Source: a virus. From it: a DNA stretch of 21,790 nt. Below, piece by piece: positions 1-21,768 of the stretch. The DNA is taken from positions 1 to 21,790 of IMG/VR virus record IMGVR_UViG_3300020470_003912; one strand, given 5' to 3'. The translations under genes and the position numbers were made by a program. Every line of letters begins with the position of its first letter. Position 1 is the first letter of the stretch. The notes beneath the pieces were generated by a model. That model had not been told where the DNA came from. It was given only the letters and a program-made list of their open reading frames with translations, and did no database searches.

Positions 1-781
1 TATATTCGGTATCTCTCATCTTACTTAATATAGAAGTCAATGATTTAGCTTTAAAGTTATGCGCTTCATCACCGAACACACAACCAAATTGCTCAAACCA
101 CGTACCCGGCATTTTATATATTGATTGCCAAGTGCTTATAACTATCTTTTCCTTATCTGCAAATTTTGGTCTTCCTGCATATATCCTATGCATACAACTA
201 TCTTCAAACCCTATATCATCAGTCGAATAATCAGCAAAATCAGAATACATCTGTTGAACTAAACTCGTTGTAGGAACTACTATTAACACCCTTTTATTAT
301 AGTTCTCAAGATACCATCTTGCAATACAGTATATTATAAGAGATTTACCTGAAGCAGTAGGAGATAATAAGAGTGCACCCTTATTAGCTAAACAATATTC
401 TATTGCTCTATATTGATAATCTCTTATTTGTATTTGTTTTCCATTTGTAGTTAAATTATAAGAACTTAAAAAACTCATATCAACTTCTTGATCAGTATTA
501 GGATAACCATAATAGTTGTCATGTTCAAGCTCTATTTTATAATTTCTACCTTCAACTCCTGCAAATTCTTCAATATAGGGATATAGTCCTGCATATAATT
601 CTTTACTGTGTATATTAAAAAGACGAATCTTTCCATCCCATACTTTATTTCTATAAGCTGGCATAAACTTATAACCTGGGACAAAGAAAGTAAAAAAGTC
701 ACTCAACTCATTTAGAGCTGAAGGTTCACCATCTACTGTTATAAAAGCATGGTTCTTCTTTTTTACTTGTAGTATAGACAT
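1..781 (-). CDS. uvsW: UvsW-like DNA/RNA helicase, N-terminal part (cut by window edge)
   Basis: Superfamily 2 helicase that in T4 unwinds branched DNA and R-loops, drives branch migration, and helps switch replication from origin-dependent to recombination-dependent mode. About 260 residues are visible, against roughly 500 in T4 UvsW; the rest lies beyond position 1. I read this frame directly from the sequence. The N-terminus starts MSILQVKKK and leads into the small UvsW N-terminal domain. The Walker A motif SPTASGKS falls at residues 140-147 (K146), and the DEAH box is D238-E239-A240-H241. The ATG at 781-779 overlaps the uvsY stop as TAATG, so the two are probably translationally coupled; the ribosome binding site is weak. 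Family assignment is firm from motifs plus the uvsY neighbour. Confidence 0.93.
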   Translation of the reverse strand, partial: MSILQVKKKNHAFITVDGEPSALNELSDFFTFFVPGYKFMPAYRNKVWDGKIRLFNIHSKELYAGLYPYIEEFAGVEGRNYKIELEHDNYYGYPNTDQEVDMSFLSSYNLTTNGKQIQIRDYQYRAIEYCLANKGALLLSPTASGKSLIIYCIARWYLENYNKRVLIVVPTTSLVQQMYSDFADYSTDDIGFEDSCMHRIYAGRPKFADKEKIVISTWQSIYKMPGTWFEQFGCVFGDEAHNFKAKSLTSILSKMRDTEY

Positions 782-1224
782 TATACACCGGATGTGAACT
801 TACGCCATTCAATCATATTTTTAATTGTCTGGTGTCGCCACTTTATGCTTTCTAATATTTCTTTAAGGGTATCTGCTTGTGTTTTATATAATTCTATTTT
901 AGCTAATGCAGTTTGAATATGTTTATCTGAATCATAATAATAATCCATTTCACCTTTTAATATCTTTAAACCGTCAAGTGGATCATAACCCCAACCTAAC
1001 TGATCAATTTTTTCCTGTGGCATCTTACCATTATACCAAAGCCATTTATCTCTTAAAAGTACTTTAAAATCTAATTCTAATTTTTTCACCTGCAGTTTTG
1101 CGTGTGAATGAAGTTCTAAGTATTTTGAGTGAAGTTTTGCTGCATCTCTTGATGCATTATCGAGATTCATTTCATCGATTTGCGAGTCACGTTTCCACAA
1201 CTCGTGTATTTCATCTAGTGTCAT
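781..1224 (-). CDS. uvsY: UvsY-like recombination mediator protein
   Basis: T4 UvsY loads the UvsX recombinase onto gp32-coated single-stranded DNA and is needed for recombination-dependent replication. This 147-residue protein is close to T4 UvsY (137 aa). It has the same opening pattern (M-L--------D--ID), charged helical content throughout, and a C-terminal helix rich in aromatic and basic residues (IKWRHQTIKNMIEWRKF). The ATG at 1224 has an AAGGA ribosome binding site 6 bases upstream. It sits directly before uvsW with overlapping stop and start, the classic UvsY/UvsW pairing. Identification rests on overall resemblance and synteny, as the family has no catalytic motif. Confidence 0.88.
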   Translation of the reverse strand: MTLDEIHELWKRDSQIDEMNLDNASRDAAKLHSKYLELHSHAKLQVKKLELDFKVLLRDKWLWYNGKMPQEKIDQLGWGYDPLDGLKILKGEMDYYYDSDKHIQTALAKIELYKTQADTLKEILESIKWRHQTIKNMIEWRKFTSGV

Positions 1225-1249: not shown

Positions 1250-1783
1250 CTATAGGAATTTGTAATAGGAATAATTGAATGATGTAATAGCAGTGAGATA
1301 CTCTACATCTGTTGCATTAGTAGTAAATGGGAGAGAGCTGATTGAAATAGGATATGCATCAACAAATTGTATTTGAGTTCCTACGTTGTTATGACTAGTA
1401 AGAATCTGCAAAGTTAAATCTCTTGTTTTTCTTTCATTATATGTAGTTCTTCCAATTTTTTTATCTGGTTCTGTTATTAACCCAACAATCCAATCGTGTA
1501 TTTCCTTATAGTTTATCATATCTTCATCAACGAGAAATGCAACTTCTAAAGGCGCATATTCTAGTTTATCAGGCATAGTAGTAATGTTCCTTTGTTTATA
1601 CATCAAAGGTGCACCTGCAGTAGATACATCTGGAAGTGCTGCAGTTTGAACAAAATACTGAGCATTTTTATATTTCATATTATCGATTAATAATCTAAAA
1701 CCAGTAGGATTAACAAAGGTAGTTTCATCCTGAGTTGGTGCTACGTAGGTATCAGTAAAATTAACCGTTGGTGTATATGGCAT
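1250..1783 (-). CDS. probable gp3-like tail terminator / tail-tube-fold protein
   Basis: A 177-residue protein. Its C-terminus (DAYPISISSLPFTTNATDVE, then alternating aromatics in FNYSYYKF) resembles the last strands of the gp19 tail tube in this same window (FPTNISAIDLSYDTENAIEE), so a tail-tube fold is likely. T4 gp3, which caps the tail tube and stabilises the sheath before head joining, is almost the same length (176 aa), and in marine T4-like phages gp3 tends to lie between gp23 and uvsY, as here. I therefore favour gp3. A gp48/gp54-type baseplate tube protein is the main alternative. The ATG at 1783 overlaps the stop of the upstream 41-aa gene (TAATG) and has a GAGGA ribosome binding site 9 bases upstream. 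Confidence 0.65.
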   Translation of the reverse strand: MPYTPTVNFTDTYVAPTQDETTFVNPTGFRLLIDNMKYKNAQYFVQTAALPDVSTAGAPLMYKQRNITTMPDKLEYAPLEVAFLVDEDMINYKEIHDWIVGLITEPDKKIGRTTYNERKTRDLTLQILTSHNNVGTQIQFVDAYPISISSLPFTTNATDVEYLTAITSFNYSYYKFL

Positions 1784-1908
1784 TAATCGTCATCCTCGTA
1801 AATAAAAATATCTGGTTTTGCATCTTTTCTTTTATATTTAAATCTCCATAAAAGAACAGTCAAATGCATTTTAAACCATTTCCTTATTCTATTTATATAA
1901 GTTATCAT
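1783..1908 (-). CDS. small conserved-looking phage protein, 41 aa, unknown function
   Basis: A short open frame whose product starts MITYINRIRKWFK, continues with a short hydrophobic/aromatic segment (MHLTVLLWRF), then a basic stretch (KYKRKDAK), and ends in an acidic tail (YEDDD). A membrane-associated micro-protein is possible but not shown. The frame overlaps the 3' end of the SGNH gene by 20 bases and joins the next gene by TAATG, which argues that it is translated. Two starts are possible: ATG at 1908, with a weak GATGG ahead, or ATG at 1869 (28 aa), with a better AAGGA 11 bases upstream. The annotated longer form is a choice, not a certainty. Confidence 0.55.
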   Translation of the reverse strand: MITYINRIRKWFKMHLTVLLWRFKYKRKDAKPDIFIYEDDD

Positions 1909-2827
1909 ATCCATCTTTTATTTTATCAAAAATATATCTTTGACCATCAGCATTTGGATGTCTATCAGGCTCTCCAGTACGATCACGTTCTTCACCTGTC
2001 ATTGCATCAATACATTGTTTATTTGCATTGTTTTTTCTTGATTTTTCATTATAATCTAATGTAAATCCATCTCTAGCTAGTTCTAGATAAACAGGATCTA
2101 TTCCGTCTTTTTCTTTCATATGCATTTTATCCCATACATAAATTCCTCCAGCTAATGGAATAAAGGGTGCACCCCAAAACTGTTCATCATCTTCTATTTT
2201 TTCCATTAATGGGTATTCTTCTATAATTTTATATGTAGCATAGGTTACATCTAGTTTTCTTTTTGTTCTGCTTTTTTCAAAATTCAGAAGGCCTGATATA
2301 TAACCTGCAGGTCTATCAGATTTTGTCGGGCCAAAATCTTGTACTATATTAACAGGGTGTAATAATTGAAATACAAATAATTTTATACCATTTGCTTTAG
2401 CAGCTTGTTGTATAGCGTACATACAAGTAAAAGCTGTTTTAACTGATGCTTTATAAATCTCTTCAGGATAATCTTTTCGAAGTTCATTCCATGCATACAT
2501 GCCTGGTTTACCTCTACTCAAAAAATGTGGAGGATTGTTTTTTGTCAAGCCATGCATATAAGGAAACATGAATCGAGACCAACTACTCATTCCTATAGTT
2601 ATAAGTTCAATATCTTCACCGTATTTAGCAATTGCTTGTAATGTACGATTTAAATGATTTATGGGCCCATCGCCACTCTTTGCACAATTAATTAATTTTA
2701 AACCAGCATGTTCTGCTAAATATTGATCCCACCATTTAAATCCAGACGGGTTTTCTATACCATAAGTGTGATTAAAGAAATCATGATCAGTGAAACTGCA
2801 ACCTGTACTAATACACAGTGATCGCAT
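1889..2827 (-). CDS. SGNH/GDSL hydrolase-like protein
   Basis: A 312-residue protein with the outline of the SGNH esterase/acetylhydrolase fold. Block I is STGCSF with candidate nucleophile S11; a block II glycine lies in CAKSGDG (about residues 49-55); the C-terminal block V is DRHPNADGQ, with candidate catalytic D288 and H290. The usual GxND of block III is replaced by IGMSSWSRF, so the oxyanion Asn is not obvious. SGNH enzymes typically remove or transfer acyl groups on glycans. The frame could open at ATG 2851, but ATG 2827 has a strong GGAG 8 bases upstream (TTGGAGTAAAAAATATG) and starts right at the conserved domain, so I use 2827. It overlaps the carbamoyltransferase end by 20 bases. 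The substrate is unknown. It is not part of the T4 core. Confidence 0.8.
   Translation of the reverse strand: MRSLCISTGCSFTDHDFFNHTYGIENPSGFKWWDQYLAEHAGLKLINCAKSGDGPINHLNRTLQAIAKYGEDIELITIGMSSWSRFMFPYMHGLTKNNPPHFLSRGKPGMYAWNELRKDYPEEIYKASVKTAFTCMYAIQQAAKANGIKLFVFQLLHPVNIVQDFGPTKSDRPAGYISGLLNFEKSRTKRKLDVTYATYKIIEEYPLMEKIEDDEQFWGAPFIPLAGGIYVWDKMHMKEKDGIDPVYLELARDGFTLDYNEKSRKNNANKQCIDAMTGEERDRTGEPDRHPNADGQRYIFDKIKDGYDNLYK
1890..1897 (-). promoter_or_regulatory. possible late promoter before the 41-aa gene / gp3-like gene
   Basis: Perfect TATAAATA on the minus strand at the very end of the SGNH gene. It lies inside the longer form of the 41-aa gene but 20 bases ahead of its internal ATG (1869), which would favour the 28-aa form for transcripts starting here. 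Confidence 0.4.
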
Positions 2828-4130
2828 ATTTTTTACTCCAATTTTCAGCATCTTTCCATGTATTTATAATGGGTTCGCCTTTTATGTTTAACGATGTATT
2901 AAGCAGCATAGGACACCTACTCATCTTCCACCATTCTTCTAATATAGGTCTTAATATAGACCTACAGTTCTTTTTTACTACCTGCACGCGCGCAGACCCG
3001 TCCACGTGCGTGACAGATTTTAGATCATGTTTTGCTTTTGCAACATATTGCATGTATTCATTCATTGGTCCTTCGAAGTATTCATCAGCAAATTCTTCCA
3101 AGATTGCAGGTGCAAAGGGTCGAAATTTTTGTCGTTTTTTAATAGTGTTAACAGTTTCTGCAATATCCTTTCGGGGATCAGCAAGGAAGCTCCTATTGCC
3201 CAAACTACGAGGACCGAACTCTGCACGACCATGAGCAACACCGCAATAAGAATGCTTATAGATATGTTCAGCAACTTTACTAGGCGAAACATTAACTTGA
3301 ATATCATGTCCAAGATATACATCCTTCCATTTAAGTGGTTTATCCAAGTAAGCTGCAGCTGCGCCTAAACTAGCACCCGCATCACCGGGATTAGGCATCA
3401 TCCAAATATCATCAAATAGATATGTTATTTTACTGTTAGCAACACAGTTCAATGCAACTCCTCCACCATAACAAAGGTAACTTGAATATTGTCTAGCCTT
3501 TTGCATAATTTGAATAATCTTATTTTCTATTAACCATTGAGCAGATGCTGCGATGTCTTCATTTCGTGCATTTGGTAGTATATTTCCACAACCCTTATGA
3601 AGATTTGTTTCAAGAAGATATTCTAAATCATATATAGGCTCACCAAAAGCAGCCATACCCATTGTAATGTATTCATCTTCTTGCGGTTTTAATCCTAACC
3701 TCTGTGTTATTGCAGAATAGAATAAACCTAATGAATATGGGTATTTCTGTGACCATACCTTCTTCTTTTTATACCAAATAGAACACGTATCCCATTCTCC
3801 TATAGCATCTATTATAACACAAACGGGTTCATTTGTAAACGGTTTTGTGTAATAAGATGCTGCAGCGTGAGACCAATGATGATGAAATGATTTAGTAGTG
3901 AGTTCTCTGAATTTAAACTTTTGACCAGAATATAACATTCGAGTGCTCTTAAGAATTGGTTTCTCGTAGAACACTTTAATGCCTTGATCTTTAGGCATAT
4001 CAGGATGTAAATATTTGTCATTCTTTAAACGACTATAACGTTCAGCATGACCTGCATATATTATGTTACCATTCAAGTCAATTATCGTTTTAGCCGCATC
4101 ATGAAATCCATAAGACAGACCAGTAATCAT
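2808..4130 (-). CDS. NodU/CmcH-family carbamoyltransferase
   Basis: Members of this family make carbamoyl-adenylate from carbamoyl phosphate and ATP, then transfer the carbamoyl group to a hydroxyl of a sugar or other small molecule. The 440 residues carry the family motifs in order: GFHDAA (8-13), the His cluster HHHWSHAA (83-90), D108, MGMAAFG (157-163), GGGVALNC (222-229), GDAGASLGAA (249-258), GRAEFGPRSLGNRS (301-314), KFRPFAPA (335-342), HVDGSARVQ (375-383) and NTSLNIKGEP (411-420). The C-terminus stops about 20 residues after the last motif, shorter than most relatives. It lies just after the gp23 terminator with a late-promoter octamer immediately ahead, but almost no leader or ribosome binding site. 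Such genes occur in some marine T4-like phages; the acceptor is unknown. Confidence 0.93.
   Translation of the reverse strand: MITGLSYGFHDAAKTIIDLNGNIIYAGHAERYSRLKNDKYLHPDMPKDQGIKVFYEKPILKSTRMLYSGQKFKFRELTTKSFHHHWSHAAASYYTKPFTNEPVCVIIDAIGEWDTCSIWYKKKKVWSQKYPYSLGLFYSAITQRLGLKPQEDEYITMGMAAFGEPIYDLEYLLETNLHKGCGNILPNARNEDIAASAQWLIENKIIQIMQKARQYSSYLCYGGGVALNCVANSKITYLFDDIWMMPNPGDAGASLGAAAAYLDKPLKWKDVYLGHDIQVNVSPSKVAEHIYKHSYCGVAHGRAEFGPRSLGNRSFLADPRKDIAETVNTIKKRQKFRPFAPAILEEFADEYFEGPMNEYMQYVAKAKHDLKSVTHVDGSARVQVVKKNCRSILRPILEEWWKMSRCPMLLNTSLNIKGEPIINTWKDAENWSKKYAITVY
2861..2868 (-). promoter_or_regulatory. possible late promoter for the SGNH gene, inside the carbamoyltransferase
   Basis: Perfect TATAAATA on the minus strand, 33 bases before the SGNH ATG at 2827. 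Transcription would start near 2855 and the leader would include the GGAG ribosome binding site. It is embedded in Ile-Ile-Asn-Thr codons, so chance cannot be excluded. Confidence 0.5.
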
Positions 4131-4135
4131 GACTT

Positions 4136-4143
4136 TATTTATA
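4136..4143 (-). promoter_or_regulatory. T4-type late promoter octamer before the carbamoyltransferase
   Basis: Perfect TATAAATA on the minus strand, five bases before the ATG at 4130 and directly after the gp23 terminator. T4 late transcription usually starts about 6 bases past the octamer, which would give a nearly leaderless message. Position relative to the terminator supports function; the short distance is odd. Confidence 0.55.
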
Positions 4144-4145
4144 AC

Positions 4146-4171
4146 AAAAAAAGGGAGGCCGAAGCCTCCCT
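4146..4171 (-). terminator. Rho-independent terminator after gp23
   Basis: On the minus strand this reads AGGGAGGC, TTCG loop, GCCTCCCT, followed by a run of T. It is a perfect 8-bp stem closed by a stable UUCG tetraloop with a U-tract. It lies 23 bases beyond the gp23 stop, so it should end the capsid transcript and give it a stable 3' end. Confidence 0.93.
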
Positions 4172-4193: not shown

Positions 4194-5534
4194 TTATGAA
4201 AGGATATTTGTTATCTTTGTGATTCTGTAGTACGGGTTGGCCCTTACTGCACCAACTGTTCCGTCTGTAGCCACAAATGGGTTAGCAATCATTCCATATC
4301 GAGTTTTAAAACCGATTTTTGGTTGAAATGAATTTTCCCCTACTGCTCGTACCATAGTTAGCGGTACGTATGGGCAATAGAAAAGACCTGCGTCGTATGG
4401 ATTAGGTCCTTTATAGCCTAGAGTACAGTAATCTGTATTGGCATAAGGATCTAAGTATACTCTCATTCCACCTGAAAGAGTACCGGCAAAAGTTGTACCA
4501 GTATCATCAACTGAAAGTCCAGCATTTCCTGAGATTGCAGGTGTGTAGTCTAACATTCCAGAAGCTGAAAGAGCAGCAGCAACGTCAGAAGAACACATTA
4601 GGAAGTTACCTTTTCCTCTTCGTGTTTCTTTTGCAATTACGTTAGCTTCTCTCATTAACTGAACTAGAAGACCTTTGTACTTCTCAACTGACCAACGGCC
4701 ATCTGAGTCAGCATTCACATCAAATGTACCATCTGTTGTGATGTCTGTTTGTACAGAACCTTGCTTAGCTCTAGAGTTGATTGTTCTAACTACTTCCCTG
4801 TTGATTTCAGCAAGGATTTCAGCAGAAAGAATGTTTGCCAACTCAGACTCAGCATCTAGACCATGAATTGCTTTAAGGTCTTGTGCTAATTCCATGGTGT
4901 ACTCAGCTTTAAGAGCTCTTGACTTTGCAGTCACAGTTGCTTTATCGATTGAGAACGCCATTTGAGCGAAGTTAGTTCCACCACCGTCGCCAAGAGCTTC
5001 AGCAGCAGATGTTGCCATACCAGTACCAAGACCGAATGCGTCTTCAACTGCGTCTGCACCGCCTGAGGTGTCAGCAGAAGATTCACCAGTTACTCCTGGA
5101 GGGTTAATATCGCCAACCAAGGATGATGAACCACCACCTTGTGTGCCTGTTCCTGAGAAGTCTGTATCAGCTTCGTTGAATAGAGCCTCTGTACCACCTT
5201 GTGATGTGTACTTAGACTTCATTGCAAAGATAAGACCTGTTGGACCAGTCATTGGCTGCACACCACAAATGTCGTATGCAATTAAGTTAGGCATAGCTCT
5301 TCGAACTAGACCAATAAGAATTGGATCCCAGTTATCGATATTTGAGCCAGTTGCGTTAGCAGGTGCCTCAGTCAATTGAAAGTTTTGCTGAGAACGCTCT
5401 TCTTGAAGAGCCTTTTCAGTGTTTTCAAGGACTGTAGCGGTTACAGCTCGGCGATGCTTGTCGCCAAGAGAAGGAGCTTCTTCTGCATCTAATACAGGTG
5501 TCCACTTCTCCATTATTTTGTCGCTAGTAAACAT
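4194..5534 (-). CDS. 23: major capsid protein gp23
   Basis: Builds the hexamer lattice of the head. The 446-residue product has the gp23 N-terminus (IMEKWTPVLDAEEAP near residue 7) followed by the standard gp23 body (GSNIDNWDPILIGLVRRAMP near 63, then YDICGVQPMTGPTGLIFAMK). A likely prohead-protease cleavage site of the T4 (I/L)xE type is L54-T55-E56, which would remove about 56 residues during maturation. It is shorter than T4 gp23 (521 aa), as in other marine relatives. The ATG at 5534 has an AAGGGAGA ribosome binding site. It follows scaffold gp22 after 14 bases and is followed by a strong terminator. Confidence 0.97.
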   Translation of the reverse strand: MFTSDKIMEKWTPVLDAEEAPSLGDKHRRAVTATVLENTEKALQEERSQQNFQLTEAPANATGSNIDNWDPILIGLVRRAMPNLIAYDICGVQPMTGPTGLIFAMKSKYTSQGGTEALFNEADTDFSGTGTQGGGSSSLVGDINPPGVTGESSADTSGGADAVEDAFGLGTGMATSAAEALGDGGGTNFAQMAFSIDKATVTAKSRALKAEYTMELAQDLKAIHGLDAESELANILSAEILAEINREVVRTINSRAKQGSVQTDITTDGTFDVNADSDGRWSVEKYKGLLVQLMREANVIAKETRRGKGNFLMCSSDVAAALSASGMLDYTPAISGNAGLSVDDTGTTFAGTLSGGMRVYLDPYANTDYCTLGYKGPNPYDAGLFYCPYVPLTMVRAVGENSFQPKIGFKTRYGMIANPFVATDGTVGAVRANPYYRITKITNILS

Positions 5535-11704: not shown

Positions 11705-11784
11705 TTTCTTTCCCCTTGTAATTTACATTAAATGGTTTTCATAATACGGTAATTTTCATAATATTATTTATAAATAATAAAATC
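11705..11784 (-). promoter_or_regulatory. gp18 leader with T4-type late promoter (TATAAATA at 11765-11772)
   Basis: An 80-base gap between gp17 and gp18. TATAAATA on the minus strand at 11772-11765 would start transcription near 11759, giving a ~55-base leader for the sheath mRNA. The octamer is part of the palindrome TATTTATAAATA, so the plus strand has one too (11769-11776). The leader holds two copies of an 11-base direct repeat (TTTTCATAATA on the plus strand, 11736-11746 and 11753-11763). No terminator hairpin is seen. Confidence 0.75.
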
Positions 11785-16667: not shown

Positions 16668-17933
16668 TTATCCTAGCAGCATCCCGCTTACTTGAGTGTA
16701 TTTACCGTGATAAAGGTACCAGTTTGTTTGATTACCTGTAGCGTGTGATGAACTATAAATCGAATATCTAAATTGAATTTCATCATTAACAGCACAGTCA
16801 ATTATTGTAGACATAGTATCGGTAAACCAACCATCACCGTTACCGTCATCGTTCGTTCCCTGGTCAGTGTGTATGTAATCAACACCATTTTTAGTAATCA
16901 TAAATAATAAGTCGTTTATATATGTACTTGTATTCATTCTATACATAACCTGCATAGAAAAAAAGTATCTTCCTGCAGTTGGAACGGTAAATATGCCGCT
17001 AGTATTATTCATATGATTTCCAACGTTATGATGTGATTGCCAGTTGACAATAGTATGTGCAGCCCCATCTAACATATAAAAACCAACATTACCATTAGGA
17101 CCCCATGAAGCAAAAGATGGTTGACGTGCAAAAACATTATGACCTAATTCATTGATTCTCATACTTTCAACAAAGCTACCACTGTTTTTAACTGCTATAG
17201 CAAACTCACCGTCAGCGTCACCGCTATTAGTGTCACCAGTTATCTTAACACTGTCTACTAAAGCGTTACTAGTATTCAATGCTCCTAATAGAATATCATA
17301 ACCTCTATTACTTGTGTTATACGCACGATAGAAACCAGACATATAGTTTCCAATAACAGTAAGTTGCCTTTCAGGAACTTGAGCTCCTGGAAAAGGTGAA
17401 CCTCCTCCTGAAATTCCTACGCCTCCCTCTTTATCAATCTTCATTCTTTCTAAAGGAGTATCGTACGCACTTGTACCTGAATTCCATCCTGTAGTTATAA
17501 AGCTAAGACCGTGACCTGCTCTTGAATCGAGCTGTATAGCAGATGCATTTTCTCCTGAAGCTCCTATAACGTTATTTCCGGCTGCATTCAAAGTTAAATT
17601 GGCGCCAAGCATATGATAACTACCTGACCCATCGGAGTAACTGCTTATAGAGAAAGGAGGACCCGCGGGATTAGATGAGGTTATAGCAAAAGCAGGTGTT
17701 CCGTCATTAGATTTAACGTCTATAGTAGCAGTTCCACTGGATTGTCTTAAAGCAAGAACAGAACCAAGAGCTGAAAGATCTATTTTGTCAGACGTAACTG
17801 CATCATTAGCTAACTCTGCAACTGTAATGGCATTAGCCGCAATATCCTCGGCAGCAATTACGTCTGCTGATATATGAGCAGTTTGTACTGCATTGTCTGC
17901 TATTCCGTGTAATGTGATTTTATCTATTGCCAT
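16668..17933 (-). CDS. tail fibre / adhesin with stalk repeats and C1q-like head
   Basis: A 421-residue structural protein, last of the fibre cassette. Residues 1-50 carry degenerate stalk repeats (IADNAV, DIAANAITVAELANDAVTSD) like those seen in many phage fibres. The middle is beta-rich with repeated peptides such as LERMKIDKEGGVGI and ESMRINELGHN, typical of fibre shaft domains. From about 270 the sequence looks like a C1q/TNF jelly roll: TSGIFTVPTAGRYFFSMQV, NGVDYIH, AVNDEIQFRY, and terminal VSGMLLG. C1q-like heads trimerise and could bind a receptor. The ATG at 17933 directly abuts the TAA of the upstream gene. The specific virion position is not known. Confidence 0.8.
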   Translation of the reverse strand: MAIDKITLHGIADNAVQTAHISADVIAAEDIAANAITVAELANDAVTSDKIDLSALGSVLALRQSSGTATIDVKSNDGTPAFAITSSNPAGPPFSISSYSDGSGSYHMLGANLTLNAAGNNVIGASGENASAIQLDSRAGHGLSFITTGWNSGTSAYDTPLERMKIDKEGGVGISGGGSPFPGAQVPERQLTVIGNYMSGFYRAYNTSNRGYDILLGALNTSNALVDSVKITGDTNSGDADGEFAIAVKNSGSFVESMRINELGHNVFARQPSFASWGPNGNVGFYMLDGAAHTIVNWQSHHNVGNHMNNTSGIFTVPTAGRYFFSMQVMYRMNTSTYINDLLFMITKNGVDYIHTDQGTNDDGNGDGWFTDTMSTIIDCAVNDEIQFRYSIYSSSHATGNQTNWYLYHGKYTQVSGMLLG

Positions 17934-18527
17934 TTATTGCAAGACCTCCTGAACCATAATTGTACTACCACAAGATGAATCATAAGCTTGAGTATTTTGT
18001 CCAGTTCTATTAATAAAAATTCCTTCACTATCTCCAGTTGTCATAACCTTCACATCATATGTAATTTGTGATGTTGTATTAGGTGTGTCTAGGTAAGAAG
18101 CCGAATATGTATGAGTAGAATAATAATAGGTCAGATCACTGTGTTCTTTTCTCACATTAAACCAAACATTGCTCCACTGTGTACCAACATCCTGACTATC
18201 TAAACCTCCACCCCATACCGTATTTTGAGTCCCGCCTGAAATAGATCTATAACACCTAACAAGTCCAGAATGATGATTACGATGTGTCGCTGAAAGACTC
18301 ATAGTAACCAAAATCAGACTGGTAGCAAATTTCGGTGTAATATTAACTGAATATACTGTAGTAAAACTTGTTGACGTTACAACCGATTTTGCCGTGTGTC
18401 GAGTCATATTAAAATTATTAAGATGACCAGCCGGAAGATCAACTGTTCCAGCTGCAGTTGCACCTTGAATAGCATCTATTGAAAGAGTTGTAGATGAAAT
18501 CGAAGTATCTGTAATAGAAGTTGCCAT
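17934..18527 (-). CDS. probable tail fibre component, beta-rich
   Basis: A 197-residue Ser/Thr-rich protein. A short N-terminal segment (MATSITDTSISSTTLSIDAI) resembles attachment peptides of its neighbours. The body has alternating hydrophobic strands (TSFTTVYSVNITPKFATSLI, then LVTMSLSATHRNHH), a pattern I associate with marine phage fibre domains where a strand pair around SFTTV---ITPKF is followed by a jelly-roll-like fold. No catalytic motif. The end (IMVQEVLQ) lacks the LxG ending of its neighbours. The ribosome binding site AGGATAAG is part of an 18-base sequence repeated at another junction. Function is inferred from context. Confidence 0.65.
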   Translation of the reverse strand: MATSITDTSISSTTLSIDAIQGATAAGTVDLPAGHLNNFNMTRHTAKSVVTSTSFTTVYSVNITPKFATSLILVTMSLSATHRNHHSGLVRCYRSISGGTQNTVWGGGLDSQDVGTQWSNVWFNVRKEHSDLTYYYSTHTYSASYLDTPNTTSQITYDVKVMTTGDSEGIFINRTGQNTQAYDSSCGSTIMVQEVLQ

Positions 18528-18539
18528 ATCTTATCCTAT
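18522..18539 (-). repeat. 18-base gene-junction repeat, copy 1
   Basis: Minus strand ATAGGATAAGATATGGCA, spanning the stop of the 276-aa gene, the ribosome binding site and the first two codons of the 197-aa gene. Identical to 20664-20681. Confidence 0.9.
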
Positions 18540-19361
18540 CATGTGCCCGCTAAATTGACAATTAGGTCCATATATCGATACTCCATGAGTATAAGCACCT
18601 ACGAGTGGACGACACGTGTCATTACCAACTAAATACATTATGGTTGATATACTAGAACCCTGATCATAATCTCCTGAATTATAATAACCTTCCATTATAT
18701 ATGTGCCATAATAATTAGCGGCGTTCTTTTCAAAGTAGGCCCAATAATAACCGGAATTATCACCGTGATTATTATCTTTCTTACCATACAAACTAAGATT
18801 AAACTGATAATAGCCTGAAATCGGTGCAGTAAAATAACCGGTCGCACCACTATAGTGGTTACCATTATTGAAATGCATAGCGTCTGATCTCGGCACTGCA
18901 TTACCTGAACCGGTTGTTGCTGTAGACCACCCAGAACTCGCACCACTAAATCCCAAGTTATAACAACAAAACGCTGGCACGCCTGGAGTAGTTACGTAAC
19001 CGTTATTTTGAACTTTTAAATACTCTGTAGACGAATGGTCCATGACCACCAACAGTGGATAACCAGGGTTATCACCACTTGGTGCTGATATTTTAACTCC
19101 ATAAGGATTTACACCGGTGTTTCGAAAATGCGCTATAAAATTGCTACCACTATTTTTCATAACCGAAAGTGCACCAGTATCAACGTCAGAGGTATTACCT
19201 ATGTGCACTTTTTGCGCACTGGCATCTACATGAAAAACATTATTTGTTGTATTAATGTCATTTGCAATAGTTCCAAGAGTTAAAGATCCATCAGTTGCAA
19301 GAGTAATAGATGCACTACCTGCACTAGGATTTTGTAAATTCTCTAACTTAAGCGTTGACAT
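18531..19361 (-). CDS. tail fibre / adhesin with C1q-like head
   Basis: 276 residues. The N-terminus (MSTLKLENLQNPSAGSASIT) is a common opening of marine phage fibre proteins and may be the attachment peptide. A beta-rich shaft follows (FHVDASAQKVHIG, KVQNNGYVTTPG). From about residue 127 the sequence fits a C1q-like domain: AFCCYNLGFSG, TGYFTAPISGYYQFNLSLYG and terminal CQFSGHMIG. Several Cys are present (two adjacent near 132). ATG 19361 follows the stop of the 92-aa gene after a few bases, with GAAGAG ahead. Confidence 0.8.
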   Translation of the reverse strand: MSTLKLENLQNPSAGSASITLATDGSLTLGTIANDINTTNNVFHVDASAQKVHIGNTSDVDTGALSVMKNSGSNFIAHFRNTGVNPYGVKISAPSGDNPGYPLLVVMDHSSTEYLKVQNNGYVTTPGVPAFCCYNLGFSGASSGWSTATTGSGNAVPRSDAMHFNNGNHYSGATGYFTAPISGYYQFNLSLYGKKDNNHGDNSGYYWAYFEKNAANYYGTYIMEGYYNSGDYDQGSSISTIMYLVGNDTCRPLVGAYTHGVSIYGPNCQFSGHMIG

Positions 19362-19367
19362 AAACTA

Positions 19368-19646
19368 TTACTCTTCTGGTATTGAAGGTCTATTATTTGC
19401 TTCACTTACTTCTTTTGCTGTTTGCACAACCTTCAGCTCAAACGCTTGCTCCACTTGTGCATCTGCACCGGTGGCTAATTGGACTGAATTTGCATTACAG
19501 TGTTCAACTAATTTAGCAATAATCTCGTCTTGTGCTATTCTAGCTCGATTTTGTGCTGCATTATTAATCCAATCTGAAGGGCTAACTGCGCAATACTCCA
19601 TACACTTTTCCTGTGTATCTGTAAGAGGGACGCTAATATCTACCAT
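19368..19646 (-). CDS. small helical protein of unknown function in the fibre cassette
   Basis: A 92-residue, mainly helical protein (EKCMEYCAVSPSDWINNAAQ near residue 13, then RARIAQDEIIAKLVEHCNAN), with three Cys and an acidic end (SIPEE). I do not recognise a family. It differs in composition from the Gly/Ser/Thr-rich fibre genes on both sides. The ATG at 19646 has a good AGGAG ribosome binding site and a GATAAATA late-promoter variant 26 bases upstream. A fibre chaperone or minor tail protein would fit the place, but this is only context. Confidence 0.75.
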   Translation of the reverse strand: MVDISVPLTDTQEKCMEYCAVSPSDWINNAAQNRARIAQDEIIAKLVEHCNANSVQLATGADAQVEQAFELKVVQTAKEVSEANNRPSIPEE

Positions 19647-19671
19647 TTCTTTCTCCTAATTATTATATCTA

Positions 19672-19679
19672 TATTTATC
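19672..19679 (-). promoter_or_regulatory. possible late promoter, GATAAATA variant
   Basis: GATAAATA on the minus strand matches the NATAAATA late motif known from marine T4-like phages. It lies 26 bases before the 92-aa gene, with AGGAG between. It overlaps the stop of the preceding gene. Confidence 0.5.
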
Positions 19680-20265
19680 CTACTAAGTAGCCTTGAAATC
19701 CACTATATGTCGACCCGTCATAGCTCAGGTATATGTTTGAGTGATTATTTGCATGCCACAATCCAGCCCAAATTAAATCTCCAGCCTGACACTGAATAAG
19801 TTGGCTGGTACGGATGCCTCTCTCAATAATATTAGTTCCTGACCTGTTATGATAAGAAACTCTTGTTGAAGACCCACTTCTTTCGCGCCAGAGAGTGAGT
19901 GATATCGATCCACAAGTATCAGCATGATGAAGGTGCACTTCTGCCCAGTATATTCCAGCTACAGGGCAAGTAAATTTATTATTAGCAAAATTACCGCCAA
20001 TATCAAAATCTTCTCCATCCCAAACCAATAATTCTGTTGATTGATGAGGGGTTGAAATCCAAGTTTGAGTAGTGTTATAAACTGACCACGCAGGATTATT
20101 ATTGGTTGCAGTACCATCTATCGTTAGATCACCGTTCAACGTAAGATTATTACTTGCATCTTTTACTGGAAGTTTTGATAAATCAATACTATTTGATCCA
20201 GCCGTTGATGGAACCGTTAGATCATAATATCCTGATGAATCACCTGAAACTCTTATTGTACTCAT
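19675..20265 (-). CDS. tail fibre / adhesin with C1q-like head
   Basis: 196 residues from ATG 20265. The frame also contains a GTG at 20277, but ATG 20265 forms an ATGA overlap with the upstream stop and has AAGGTGG a few bases ahead, so I prefer it. The N-terminus (MSTIRVSGDSSGYYDLTVPS) and SNNLTLNGDLTIDGTATN make a short shaft. The rest (about 57-196) is C1q-like: PVAGIYWAEVHLHHADTCG, QCQAGDLIWAGLWHAN and terminal FQGYLVG. Confidence 0.8.
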   Translation of the reverse strand: MSTIRVSGDSSGYYDLTVPSTAGSNSIDLSKLPVKDASNNLTLNGDLTIDGTATNNNPAWSVYNTTQTWISTPHQSTELLVWDGEDFDIGGNFANNKFTCPVAGIYWAEVHLHHADTCGSISLTLWRERSGSSTRVSYHNRSGTNIIERGIRTSQLIQCQAGDLIWAGLWHANNHSNIYLSYDGSTYSGFQGYLVG

Positions 20266-20669
20266 ACTACCACCCACCTTGCATTTGAACCGAGTGTTAC
20301 AGTAACTCCTGATGCAAGTGTTACTGGTCCTGCTGTCACCGCGCTCCTATTAGCACTTAATGTATAATTAGAAGCTACTGACTGCGCATTTGTGTAGAAT
20401 ATGTCATCCTCAGCTACGTTAGAAAATGATATTGTACCGCTACCATTTGTAATAAGTGCTTGACCACTTGTTCCGTCTGATAAATTAAGAGCATCTATAC
20501 CTACTGAATTAGTTGCAAGCTTAGGCGCTGTTACTGCATCATCTATAATATCAGTTGTTGTAACTGCGTTAGCTGCAATATCATCTGTAACAATTACGCC
20601 GGTTCCAATGTGATCAGTCGTGATTGAGTTATTAGGAATTGAAGCTGAATGTATTTTTCTTACTGCCAT
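20262..20669 (-). CDS. small fibre stalk / connector protein
   Basis: 135 residues. The first ~60 are degenerate stalk repeats (IPNNSITTDHIGTGVIVTDD, IAANAVTTTDIIDDAVTAPK) closely similar to the N-terminus of the 421-aa fibre. Then come DGTSGQALITNGSGTISF and a C-terminal module (QSVASNYTLSANRSAVTAGP, ending ARWVVV) seen in many marine phage fibre proteins. There is no C1q head, and the gene ends in ATGA overlap with the next gene, so the two products may have been one fibre that is now split, or assemble together. Confidence 0.75.
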   Translation of the reverse strand: MAVRKIHSASIPNNSITTDHIGTGVIVTDDIAANAVTTTDIIDDAVTAPKLATNSVGIDALNLSDGTSGQALITNGSGTISFSNVAEDDIFYTNAQSVASNYTLSANRSAVTAGPVTLASGVTVTLGSNARWVVV

Positions 20670-20681
20670 ATCTTATCCTAT
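20664..20681 (-). repeat. 18-base gene-junction repeat, copy 2
   Basis: Identical to 18522-18539. Here the upstream gene stops at TAG inside the repeat, whereas in copy 1 it stops at TAA in another frame, so shared protein coding cannot explain the identity. Confidence 0.9.
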
Positions 20682-21202
20682 GCTGTGATCCTATATCCCG
20701 AAAACCAAGATTCATGCCCTTGTGTACTACCTAAAACTCCAACATTACTTCCATAGTCATGATATACCCACATCTTTAAGATATCACCATCACTTAATCT
20801 ATGAATAGTATTAGTTTCAACACTCATATATGCACCTGTGCCGTTACCACCTGCGGTTCCTTCAAATTGGGATATATCTGTTGAACCTAGCGTAATTTTA
20901 ACTATAAGCCTATTGATATATCTATTACCCATTCTAATATGTCCAGTAAGGTGATACAATCCAGCAGTTGCACTTGTGATTACAATAGTACTATTAATTT
21001 TTAAATTGTGTGAATCATATTGCGCAGTGTCAAGACTAACCTCAGTCCAACTCCCACTAGAAACATTTACACCAGCTTCTGAATGCACTAACTTCCAATG
21101 AGGAACTTTTTCAATACGTGATGTTCCATCGTCTGCTAAACTTATAGCAGTTGCTGTACCTCCTGTAGCTTGAATATTATCTACTTTTAAGTTGCTTACC
21201 AT
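20678..21202 (-). CDS. fibre / adhesin with C1q-like head
   Basis: 174 residues. The N-terminus MVSNLKVDNIQATGGTATAI parallels MSTLKLENLQNPSAGSASIT of the 276-aa fibre, a shared attachment-type peptide. From about residue 34 (PHWKLVHSEAGVNVSSGSW) the protein reads as a C1q-like domain: TATLYHLT-like strand SATAGLYHLTGHIRMG, LSDGDILKMWVYHDYGS, and terminal WFSGYRITA. The ATG at 21202 overlaps the upstream stop as TAATG. Confidence 0.75.
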   Translation of the reverse strand: MVSNLKVDNIQATGGTATAISLADDGTSRIEKVPHWKLVHSEAGVNVSSGSWTEVSLDTAQYDSHNLKINSTIVITSATAGLYHLTGHIRMGNRYINRLIVKITLGSTDISQFEGTAGGNGTGAYMSVETNTIHRLSDGDILKMWVYHDYGSNVGVLGSTQGHESWFSGYRITA

Positions 21203-21768
21203 TATTCTCTAATCTCTTTCCATTGTATAAACCCATATTTTGGATTAGCATTTCCATAATCAAGAATCCATATAGTATCACTGCTTGAAGATAATCTAGT
21301 TTCCCAATAAAATTTCAAATCACCGGTGTAAGTTTTTAGTGCAGCTTTATAGTTCGAGTTAAAATCAGTTCTCCAAGTCATAGTACTTATATCAGCAAGA
21401 CCCGTAGCTGTAGGATAACCCGTCCAACCCCAATAATCTGCCATACCGTTAGGTAATAAATCCATCAAAAACGCATTACCGCTATTGATCGAAGTATCTG
21501 CAGTATAACCCTGACATCTTATACCAGATCCACTTGCACCTGAACCGTAGATATATGTTGGACATGTAAATGTCACTTCTATATGACTGCTGTTATTTAT
21601 TTTAGGAATAGTTAATACGTTACCTGACTGAGAACAATTTGTTGCAATTTGTCCTGTACCGTTAATGGCTATTGTAACCCAAGAAGTTGAAGTAGTTGAT
21701 AGCCGTGCGCCTGAACCATATCCAGTATTATAACTTCCTGTTTGAAGTATTCCGCCAGGCTGAACCAT
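21202..21768 (-). CDS. probable fibre protein, possibly 5'-truncated by the window edge
   Basis: 188 residues from ATG 21768. The frame stays open to the window end at 21790 (residues TYTDKGS before the Met), so the gene could begin outside. An AAGGG four bases before ATG 21768 makes an internal start plausible. The sequence is Gly/Ser/Thr/Tyr-rich and beta-like (STTSTSWVTIAINGTGQIAT, NNSSHIEVTFTCPTYIYGSG) with a C-terminal strand region DTIWILDYGNANP and KYGFIQWKEIRE. It resembles marine phage fibre domains, but no firm family can be named. Confidence 0.65.
   Translation of the reverse strand: MVQPGGILQTGSYNTGYGSGARLSTTSTSWVTIAINGTGQIATNCSQSGNVLTIPKINNSSHIEVTFTCPTYIYGSGASGSGIRCQGYTADTSINSGNAFLMDLLPNGMADYWGWTGYPTATGLADISTMTWRTDFNSNYKAALKTYTGDLKFYWETRLSSSSDTIWILDYGNANPKYGFIQWKEIRE

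Follow-up and report, generated by a model that had tools for sequence, protein, structure and literature searches.

What purpose is served by a carbamoyltransferase gene and an overlapping gene for an SGNH-fold protein that sit between the major capsid gene (gp23) and a gp3-type tail-completion gene of a marine T4-like myophage? The question is raised by IMG/VR record IMGVR_UViG_3300020470_003912, and the window analysed here, 21,790 nucleotides (nt) or 21.8 kb in length, is the whole of that one virus record. An original prediction, made from the letters of the window, had described the two genes as a late-expressed, glycan-modifying pair. Both minus-strand open reading frames (ORFs), at the coordinates first given and overlapping, were re-derived from the sequence; with the refined start of the second gene, the features of immediate concern are as follows.

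2808 to 4130, minus strand: compact O-carbamoyltransferase (CT, gene 1), 440 amino acids (aa), from Pfam, PHROG, invariant columns across 29 relatives and alignment to solved structures
1889 to 2827, minus strand: SGNH-fold protein (gene 2), 312 aa from the preferred start at 2827 (an alternative ATG lies at 2851), from alignment, the GGAG site and the predicted fold
1950 to 2789, minus strand: interior of the SGNH gene, matching the hypervariable (allele-swapped) stretch of relatives, from identity and synonymous divergence

The new result is a swap-prone SGNH partner beside a constant carbamoyltransferase. Across the lineage with the order gp23-CT-SGNH-gp3, mean pairwise protein identity is 89% for gp23, 87% for CT, 82% for gp3 and 87% for UvsY, as against 39% for SGNH, and phages with CT 98-99% and the tail gene 95-98% identical have SGNH genes that are 45-56% identical. 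For instance, the loci L008 and L010 (L-numbers denote comparison loci) are 99% identical in CT, 98% in gp3 and 45% in SGNH, with a synonymous divergence (dS) of 0.10 in gp23, 0.24 in CT, 2.33 in SGNH and 0.20 in gp3. DNA identity drops about 38 nt into the SGNH gene and is regained over its last ~60 nt, ahead of the gp3 gene, leaving conserved edges of about 13 codons (5') and about 20 codons (3'). Because synonymous sites are saturated in SGNH and nearly unsaturated in its flanks, the divergence reflects replacement with a divergent allele, not fast point mutation; positive selection in situ was rejected on the same ground, the synonymous saturation being confined to SGNH. A second lineage (L036, L040, L042, L043 and L048) repeats the pattern, with CT at 84-94%, flanks at 80-91% and SGNH at 42-60%, its synonymous sites near-saturated or saturated. 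The contrast is weaker in the lineages L027/L030 and L064/L073 (75-81%), and the window and its closest relative, L003, carry one SGNH allele (93%). These comparisons indicate that close phage relatives swap SGNH alleles by recombination with CT kept in place, and that this recurs in the second lineage.

One further candidate, L029/L032 (CT 99%, first SGNH 37%), was rejected as a simple swap; the second of the two tandem SGNH genes of L032 resembles that of L029. Two SGNH genes in tandem after CT are found at L032:9322-11009, L022:9302-10853, L027 and L030.

The association of the two genes extends well beyond these lineages. An overlapping SGNH gene is the next gene downstream of CT in 57 of the 80 IMG/VR loci that encode a member of the CT clade, in several unrelated gene contexts. 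On non-redundant rows of the CT tree, SGNH is adjacent in 33/56 within the clade versus 0/54 outside (Fisher p about 3e-13), figures to be read with the qualification that Nitrospira makes up most of the outside set, which is therefore not independent, and that the rows inside the clade are related to one another. Genome contigs with a CT identity of at least 40% also have an adjacent SGNH gene, in either gene order. Contigs with the pair include ones assigned to Actinomycetota, Collimonas and Magnetococcales; some, such as those of Nocardia, Glycomyces, Actinokineospora and Collimonas, look bacterial, and others are clearly phage (e.g. L085, with the gene order of the viral locus L041). The co-occurrence of homologues thus bears out the pairing first proposed from a single locus, and the CT-SGNH pair is, on the evidence of gene neighbourhoods, a conserved module. 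A search of the literature, covering open-access full texts, found no description of such a pair in phages. As a separate observation, L085, L090, L096 and L103 are contigs of metagenome-assembled genomes (MAGs) that have bacterial or archaeal names and phage gene sets, and are probably phage contigs binned into MAGs.

The identity of gene 1 as a carbamoyltransferase was confirmed by matches to PF16861 in the C-terminal part (3e-45, 154 bits; cut-off 27) and PF02543 in the N-terminal part (4e-35, 122 bits; cut-off 24), both far in excess of the curated cut-offs, and to PHROG 1601 (5.5e-77). The Kae1-like N-terminal part has HHxxH at residues 84-88, D108-A-I-G-E112 and NPGD250AG, and the YrdC-like C-terminal part has GRxEFGPRxLGNRS, KxRQKFRPFAP, THVDGxxRVQ and LLNTSLN; residues H84, H88, D108, D250, R308, R313, K331, R333, R337, H375, D377 and R381 are invariant in 29 CT sequences. 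Both the Kae1-like metal site (HxxxH plus Asp) and the YrdC-like carbamoyl-phosphate/ATP motifs are present and align to NovN, and we take the invariant motifs to be the metal site and the carbamoyl-phosphate/ATP site of the NodU/TobZ-type family. A profile of the 29 relatives matches the structures of NovN, GdmN, a 597-aa carbamoyltransferase and TobZ at E = 1e-51 to 1e-77. Gene 1 is, by these matches, a NodU/TobZ-type O-carbamoyltransferase with a putative role in carbamoylation of a hydroxyl.

The closest solved enzymes, the NodU/CmcH/TobZ O-carbamoyltransferases (TobZ 3VEN, GdmN 7VYJ, NovN 9S2T), have both Pfam domains in common with the window CT, as well as HHxxH, the Asp of the metal site, GRxEFGPRxLGxRS, RPFAP, THVDGxxRVQ and LLNTSxN, whereas the window CT is the shortest form (about 440 aa versus chains of 576-702 aa), belongs to a well-supported clade of its own and is paired with SGNH. 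In a maximum-likelihood tree this clade comprises 57 rows with a support of 100/99. Outside it lie the cyano- and pelagiphage 'Nol' enzymes, the Nitrospira/Bradyrhizobium type and the 5-hydroxymethylcytosine carbamoyltransferase (eLife 2021), the last on a very long branch that makes its exact placement unsure. The phage enzymes of PHROG 1601, 'Nol-like carbamoyltransferase' (P-SSM2 nol, HTVC008M, P-RSM4), are of the same superfamily; unlike the window CT, those of cyanophages and HTVC008M fall outside the compact clade and are found near replication, oxygenase or sugar genes with no adjacent SGNH. A Streptomyces parvus contig (L087) encodes a CT that is 57% identical to the marine phage enzyme and is placed among phage and MAG sequences in the tree, suggestive of recent transfer or misassembly.

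For gene 2, the SGNH identity holds through family alignment and predicted fold, but is unsupported by single-protein searches: the window protein alone yielded nothing significant against Pfam, PHROGs and 50,697 phage records (GDSL E = 0.03), and certain members of its family match GDSL at 3e-5. Conserved positions of the alignment, numbered from the ATG at 2827, are G9-C-S11-F-T13, W33, N47, G52, R85, D288-x-H290-P and G295. Block I is present as G-C-S-[FY]-T near the N-terminus with a Ser invariant in 31/31 sequences, and block II has G52 in 30/31 and N47 in 29/31. Among the same 31 sequences there is no conserved Asn corresponding to block III (GxND), which is represented instead by W-[ST]-x3-R with R85 invariant (31/31), and the Asp and His of block V are invariant in alignment A2 but with the spacing DxH (D288, H290), not DxxH. 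An AlphaFold2 model (predicted local distance difference test score 74.8, predicted template-modelling score 0.78) has the strand and helix order of SGNH proteins in a flavodoxin-like alpha/beta/alpha fold. Its Foldseek neighbours in the PDB are GDSL lipases/esterases, TesA, acetyl-xylan esterases and the acyltransferase SsfX3, the best matches mostly with a probability of 0.99-1.00 and a TM-score to the query of only about 0.2-0.4.

Gene 2 is thus recognised, through the family alignment and the modelled fold, as a highly diverged SGNH-fold protein. Since an invariant Arg replaces the block-III Asn, the label hydrolase given in the original prediction exceeds the evidence, and SGNH-fold Ser-Asp-His protein would be the safer name. 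Known SGNH/GDSL hydrolases and acyltransferases (TesA, the CE acetylesterases, SsfX3, the SGNH domain of OafA/OafB) resemble it in fold, N-terminal Ser and C-terminal Asp/His; it differs from them in having GCSFT for GDS, Arg for the GxND Asn and DxH for DxxH, in having no signal peptide or membrane domain, and in falling, as a single protein, under the Pfam cut-offs. The absence of a signal peptide is deduced from the model, whose first strand starts at residue 4, and from the catalytic Ser, which in all representatives is no more than about 25 residues from the N-terminus. The protein is expected to work in the cytoplasm, unless it forms part of the virion.

The surroundings of the pair are those of a T4-like late region on the minus strand: fibre-like genes, gp13-gp23, CT, SGNH, the gp3-type gene, uvsY and uvsW. 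As first described, the pair directly follows the gp23 terminator (4171-4152, minus strand) and lies between gp23 and the gp3-type gene.

4194 to 5534, minus strand: gp23 major capsid protein, upstream neighbour, from Pfam, PHROG and comparison with cultured phages
1250 to 1783, minus strand: gp3-type tail completion or head-proximal tail-tube-family gene, downstream neighbour, from Pfam, PHROG and similarity to proteins annotated as 'tail completion' and 'head-proximal tip of tail'
781 to 1224, minus strand: UvsY, context, from Pfam and PHROG

By gp23, the closest cultured phages are Methylophilales phage Melnitz (62.5%) and phage C48C1 (61.6%), with the Pelagibacter phages Mosig at 60.6% and HTVC008M at 60.4%. 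The order in Melnitz, HTVC008M, C48C1 and S-CAM7 is gp23, then the gp3-type gene (directly or past one small ORF), uvsY and uvsW, with both CT and SGNH absent between gp23 and the gp3-type gene. Because related phages keep this block without either gene, the pair is, from gene order, an insertion into a conserved gp23-gp3-uvsY-uvsW block. Elsewhere in the window, a series of fibre-like genes that resemble one another in their N-terminal repeats (16668-21768, minus strand) has the position of the host-recognition cluster described for pelagimyophages, and late octamers on both strands overlap at 11765-11776, upstream of gp18, as they do in L055 and L012.

How the inserted genes are expressed can be read in part from four elements.

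4152 to 4171, minus strand: intrinsic terminator after gp23, AGGGAGGC-TTCG-GCCTCCCT followed by a T run, with a UUCG loop; conserved in all relatives
4136 to 4143, minus strand: T4-type late octamer TATAAATA, separated from the CT start codon by 5 nt; conserved in 12/12 relatives
2861 to 2868, minus strand: TATAAATA within CT codons (I-I-N-T), a doubtful promoter; not conserved
1890 to 1897, minus strand: third TATAAATA octamer, overlapping the SGNH stop (TATAAATAG, encoding ..YK*); conserved in most relatives

The window contains 8 octamers, versus 2.98 expected, a number reached in 1 of 100 shuffles. Perfect octamers had been noted ahead of both genes, and exact copies of TATAAATA do lie at 4143-4136 and 2868-2861, but the second is not conserved in relatives. 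The octamer of CT, right behind the gp23 terminator, is found in all 12 relatives (10 with TATAAATA, 2 with GATAAATA) at a constant gap of 5 nt from the ATG, and a Shine-Dalgarno site is absent upstream of CT. T4 late promoters span about -13 to -6, so an octamer 5 nt upstream would place the transcript start at the A of the ATG. It is therefore probable that CT is translated leaderless from a late transcript, and its predicted late expression is well supported by the conserved promoter element. The second octamer is exact in the window and near-identical relatives only, reading AATAAATA, GATAAATA, GGTAAATA or GGTCAATA elsewhere, and falls in the codons of the conserved GEP[IM][IV]NTW motif of CT; being variable in relatives and embedded in codons of a conserved motif, it is weak evidence of a promoter. 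The separate late promoter proposed for SGNH was accordingly rejected. The SGNH start at 2827 (MRSLCISTGCSFT) has a GGAG 8 nt upstream, whereas that at 2851 has no such site, and relatives' SGNH genes begin at the site matching 2827, again overlapping CT by 20 nt. SGNH thus probably starts at 2827, which would make the overlap 20 nt and not the 44 nt first given, and it is more likely to be co-transcribed with CT and translated from the GGAG-preceded start.

The third octamer, also found in eight related loci (L003, L005, L006, L007, L008, L009, L010 and L055), is probably a late promoter for the gp3-type gene. In the late regions of Melnitz, Mosig and relatives, most octamers are separated from the next start by 15-60 nt or more, and the 5-nt spacing recurs only at the post-gp23 site, before the gp3-type gene of Mosig and before a small ORF of HTVC008M (AATAAATA). 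The inserted genes thus appear to use a post-gp23 promoter that was there before them. Candidates for leaderless late mRNAs with this spacing are at 4130-4143 (minus strand) of the window, near 1547-1560 of L169, and at the post-gp23 site of L173. What the original prediction described is largely right, apart from the start codon of SGNH and one doubtful promoter, and its interpretation is partly supported; it had not picked up that SGNH is hypervariable, that the CT octamer has leaderless spacing, or that there is a third octamer.

The glycan context that it proposed is seen around the pair in other phage lineages, where the neighbours include NAD-dependent epimerase/GDP-mannose dehydratase, UDP-glucose/GDP-mannose dehydrogenase, cytidylyltransferase, phosphomannomutase-like and glycosyltransferase (GT) genes of GT17 and GT family 1; further lineages have GT8 and radical SAM genes, GT8 being detected at E <= 0.001 in 11/18 CT-bearing records. 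Among cultured phage records, the window's SGNH family is detectable only in that of Pelagibacter phage Mosig EXVC030M, within a sugar island (SGNH homologue, ArnB-like, radical SAM, CT, methyltransferase); the family member lies about 2 kb from a CT and beside the gene for an ArnB-type sugar aminotransferase. Unlike the arrangement in the window, SGNH and CT of Mosig are non-adjacent and outside the gp23-gp3 slot, and its CT is from another branch. In large marine phages (L015:10011-17137, L014 and L019), many radical SAM/SPASM proteins, PP-loop (QueC-like) ATPases and GT8-like proteins are encoded beside CT-SGNH.

We favour, with a probability of about 0.5, a late and cytoplasmic two-gene module between gp23 and gp3 that tailors a glycan with a constant CT and a swappable SGNH partner; here we infer the enzyme activities, the sugar acceptor, the cooperation of the two proteins and the biological role. 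The YrdC-like half of CT would form carbamoyl-adenylate from carbamoyl phosphate and ATP, and at the metal site of the Kae1-like half a hydroxyl, most likely that of a sugar, would receive the carbamoyl. The SGNH partner would be a Ser-Asp-His enzyme, an esterase or an acyl/carbamoyl transferase, that works on the glycan of CT and sets which acceptor is handled, its alleles being exchanged as CT stays constant. The likeliest use would be a late change of newly made host surface glycan (virion glycan being less likely), which may block re-adsorption by progeny or competing phages. Glycosyltransferase islands of pelagimyophages have been proposed to alter the host surface against coinfection (PMC7029224), and SGNH domains acetylate O-antigen with a specificity set by the SGNH region (PMC7448272). 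Phage O-antigen modification and superinfection-exclusion cassettes have the proposed logic in common, in that phage enzymes change a host surface sugar; the window pair differs in its predicted carbamoylation in place of acetylation or glucosylation, and in its late slot in a presumably virulent myophage. A more specific version, in which SGNH is an exchangeable acceptor-specificity subunit, possibly a carbamoyl carrier, whose alleles recombine at the conserved edges and track variable surface sugars, is doubtful. The analogues for a carbamoyl-carrying SGNH are the AT3/SGNH and PatA/PatB acetylation pairs.

Several observations weigh against the favoured interpretation. No glycan gene adjoins the pair within the window, a 21.8-kb fragment; 23/56 CT clade members are without an adjacent SGNH, and CT can therefore act without it; bacterial CT members are also found in apparent natural-product loci (L107), which would allow an acceptor other than a surface glycan; late timing is read from motifs only; and the Arg in block III and DxH of block V leave hydrolase activity not assured. 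The 23/56, together with the other small genes in the post-gp23 neighbourhood of HTVC008M and C48C1, would suit a slot that collects cargo genes, with CT and SGNH mere neighbours in no common pathway, but the two stay joined and overlapping in several unrelated genomic settings, whichever gene comes first, which makes this quite unlikely. Alternatively, the pair may tailor a small molecule or modified peptide, like the genes of actinobacterial biosynthetic clusters or of radical-SAM/SPASM islands: actinobacterial neighbours include pyridoxal phosphate (PLP) decarboxylase and ligase-like genes, radical SAM/SPASM genes are numerous in several phage loci, the solved enzymes NovN, GdmN and TobZ act on antibiotics, and SsfX3 is an SGNH-fold acyltransferase from a polyketide pathway. 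Given the nucleotide-sugar and glycosyltransferase genes that surround the pair in other lineages, and its position alone among virion genes in the window, we consider this unlikely.

Hypervariability between conserved flanks is also a feature of receptor-binding genes, and SGNH might be a virion-borne receptor-binding deacetylase, or a tail protein, that fixes host range, with CT a separate modification gene alongside. Some family members have weak tail-fibre or virion PHROG matches (best E 0.0009-0.003), and SGNH tail fibres encoded by Klebsiella prophages work as esterases, with a link to capsule type (PMC13123978). The window protein, on the other hand, has its catalytic block (S11) right at the start and lacks any anchor or trimerisation domain, and SGNH is linked to CT in many contexts, including bacterial contigs away from tail genes, and this role is thus rather unlikely. 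It is very improbable that CT carbamoylates hydroxymethyl-cytosine in phage DNA, although a phage CT with such activity exists (eLife 2021, PMC8670742) and has Pfam families in common with that of the window. The two are only 26% identical, the former branches outside the 100/99 clade (on its long branch of unsure placement), and its motif GPRALCNTTTLA differs from the canonical GPRxLGNRSxLADPR of the window CT. Thymidylate-synthase-type genes, which typically co-occur with CT in modified contigs (PMC8670742), are in only 2/18 CT-bearing records, a weak absence as most records are fragments; the late position of CT beside gp23 also argues against this activity.

Phages of abundant marine bacteria have many sugar-modifying genes whose roles are guessed. 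The coupling of a conserved enzyme to an exchanged, divergent partner bears the mark of an arms race or of target matching, and the partner is in this case concrete and testable, with natural SGNH alleles in near-identical genomes providing a clean comparison. Likewise, the octamer-5 nt-ATG arrangement after gp23 makes leaderless late translation directly testable. If shown, carbamoylation would join acetylation and glucosylation as a chemistry of surface modification by phages.

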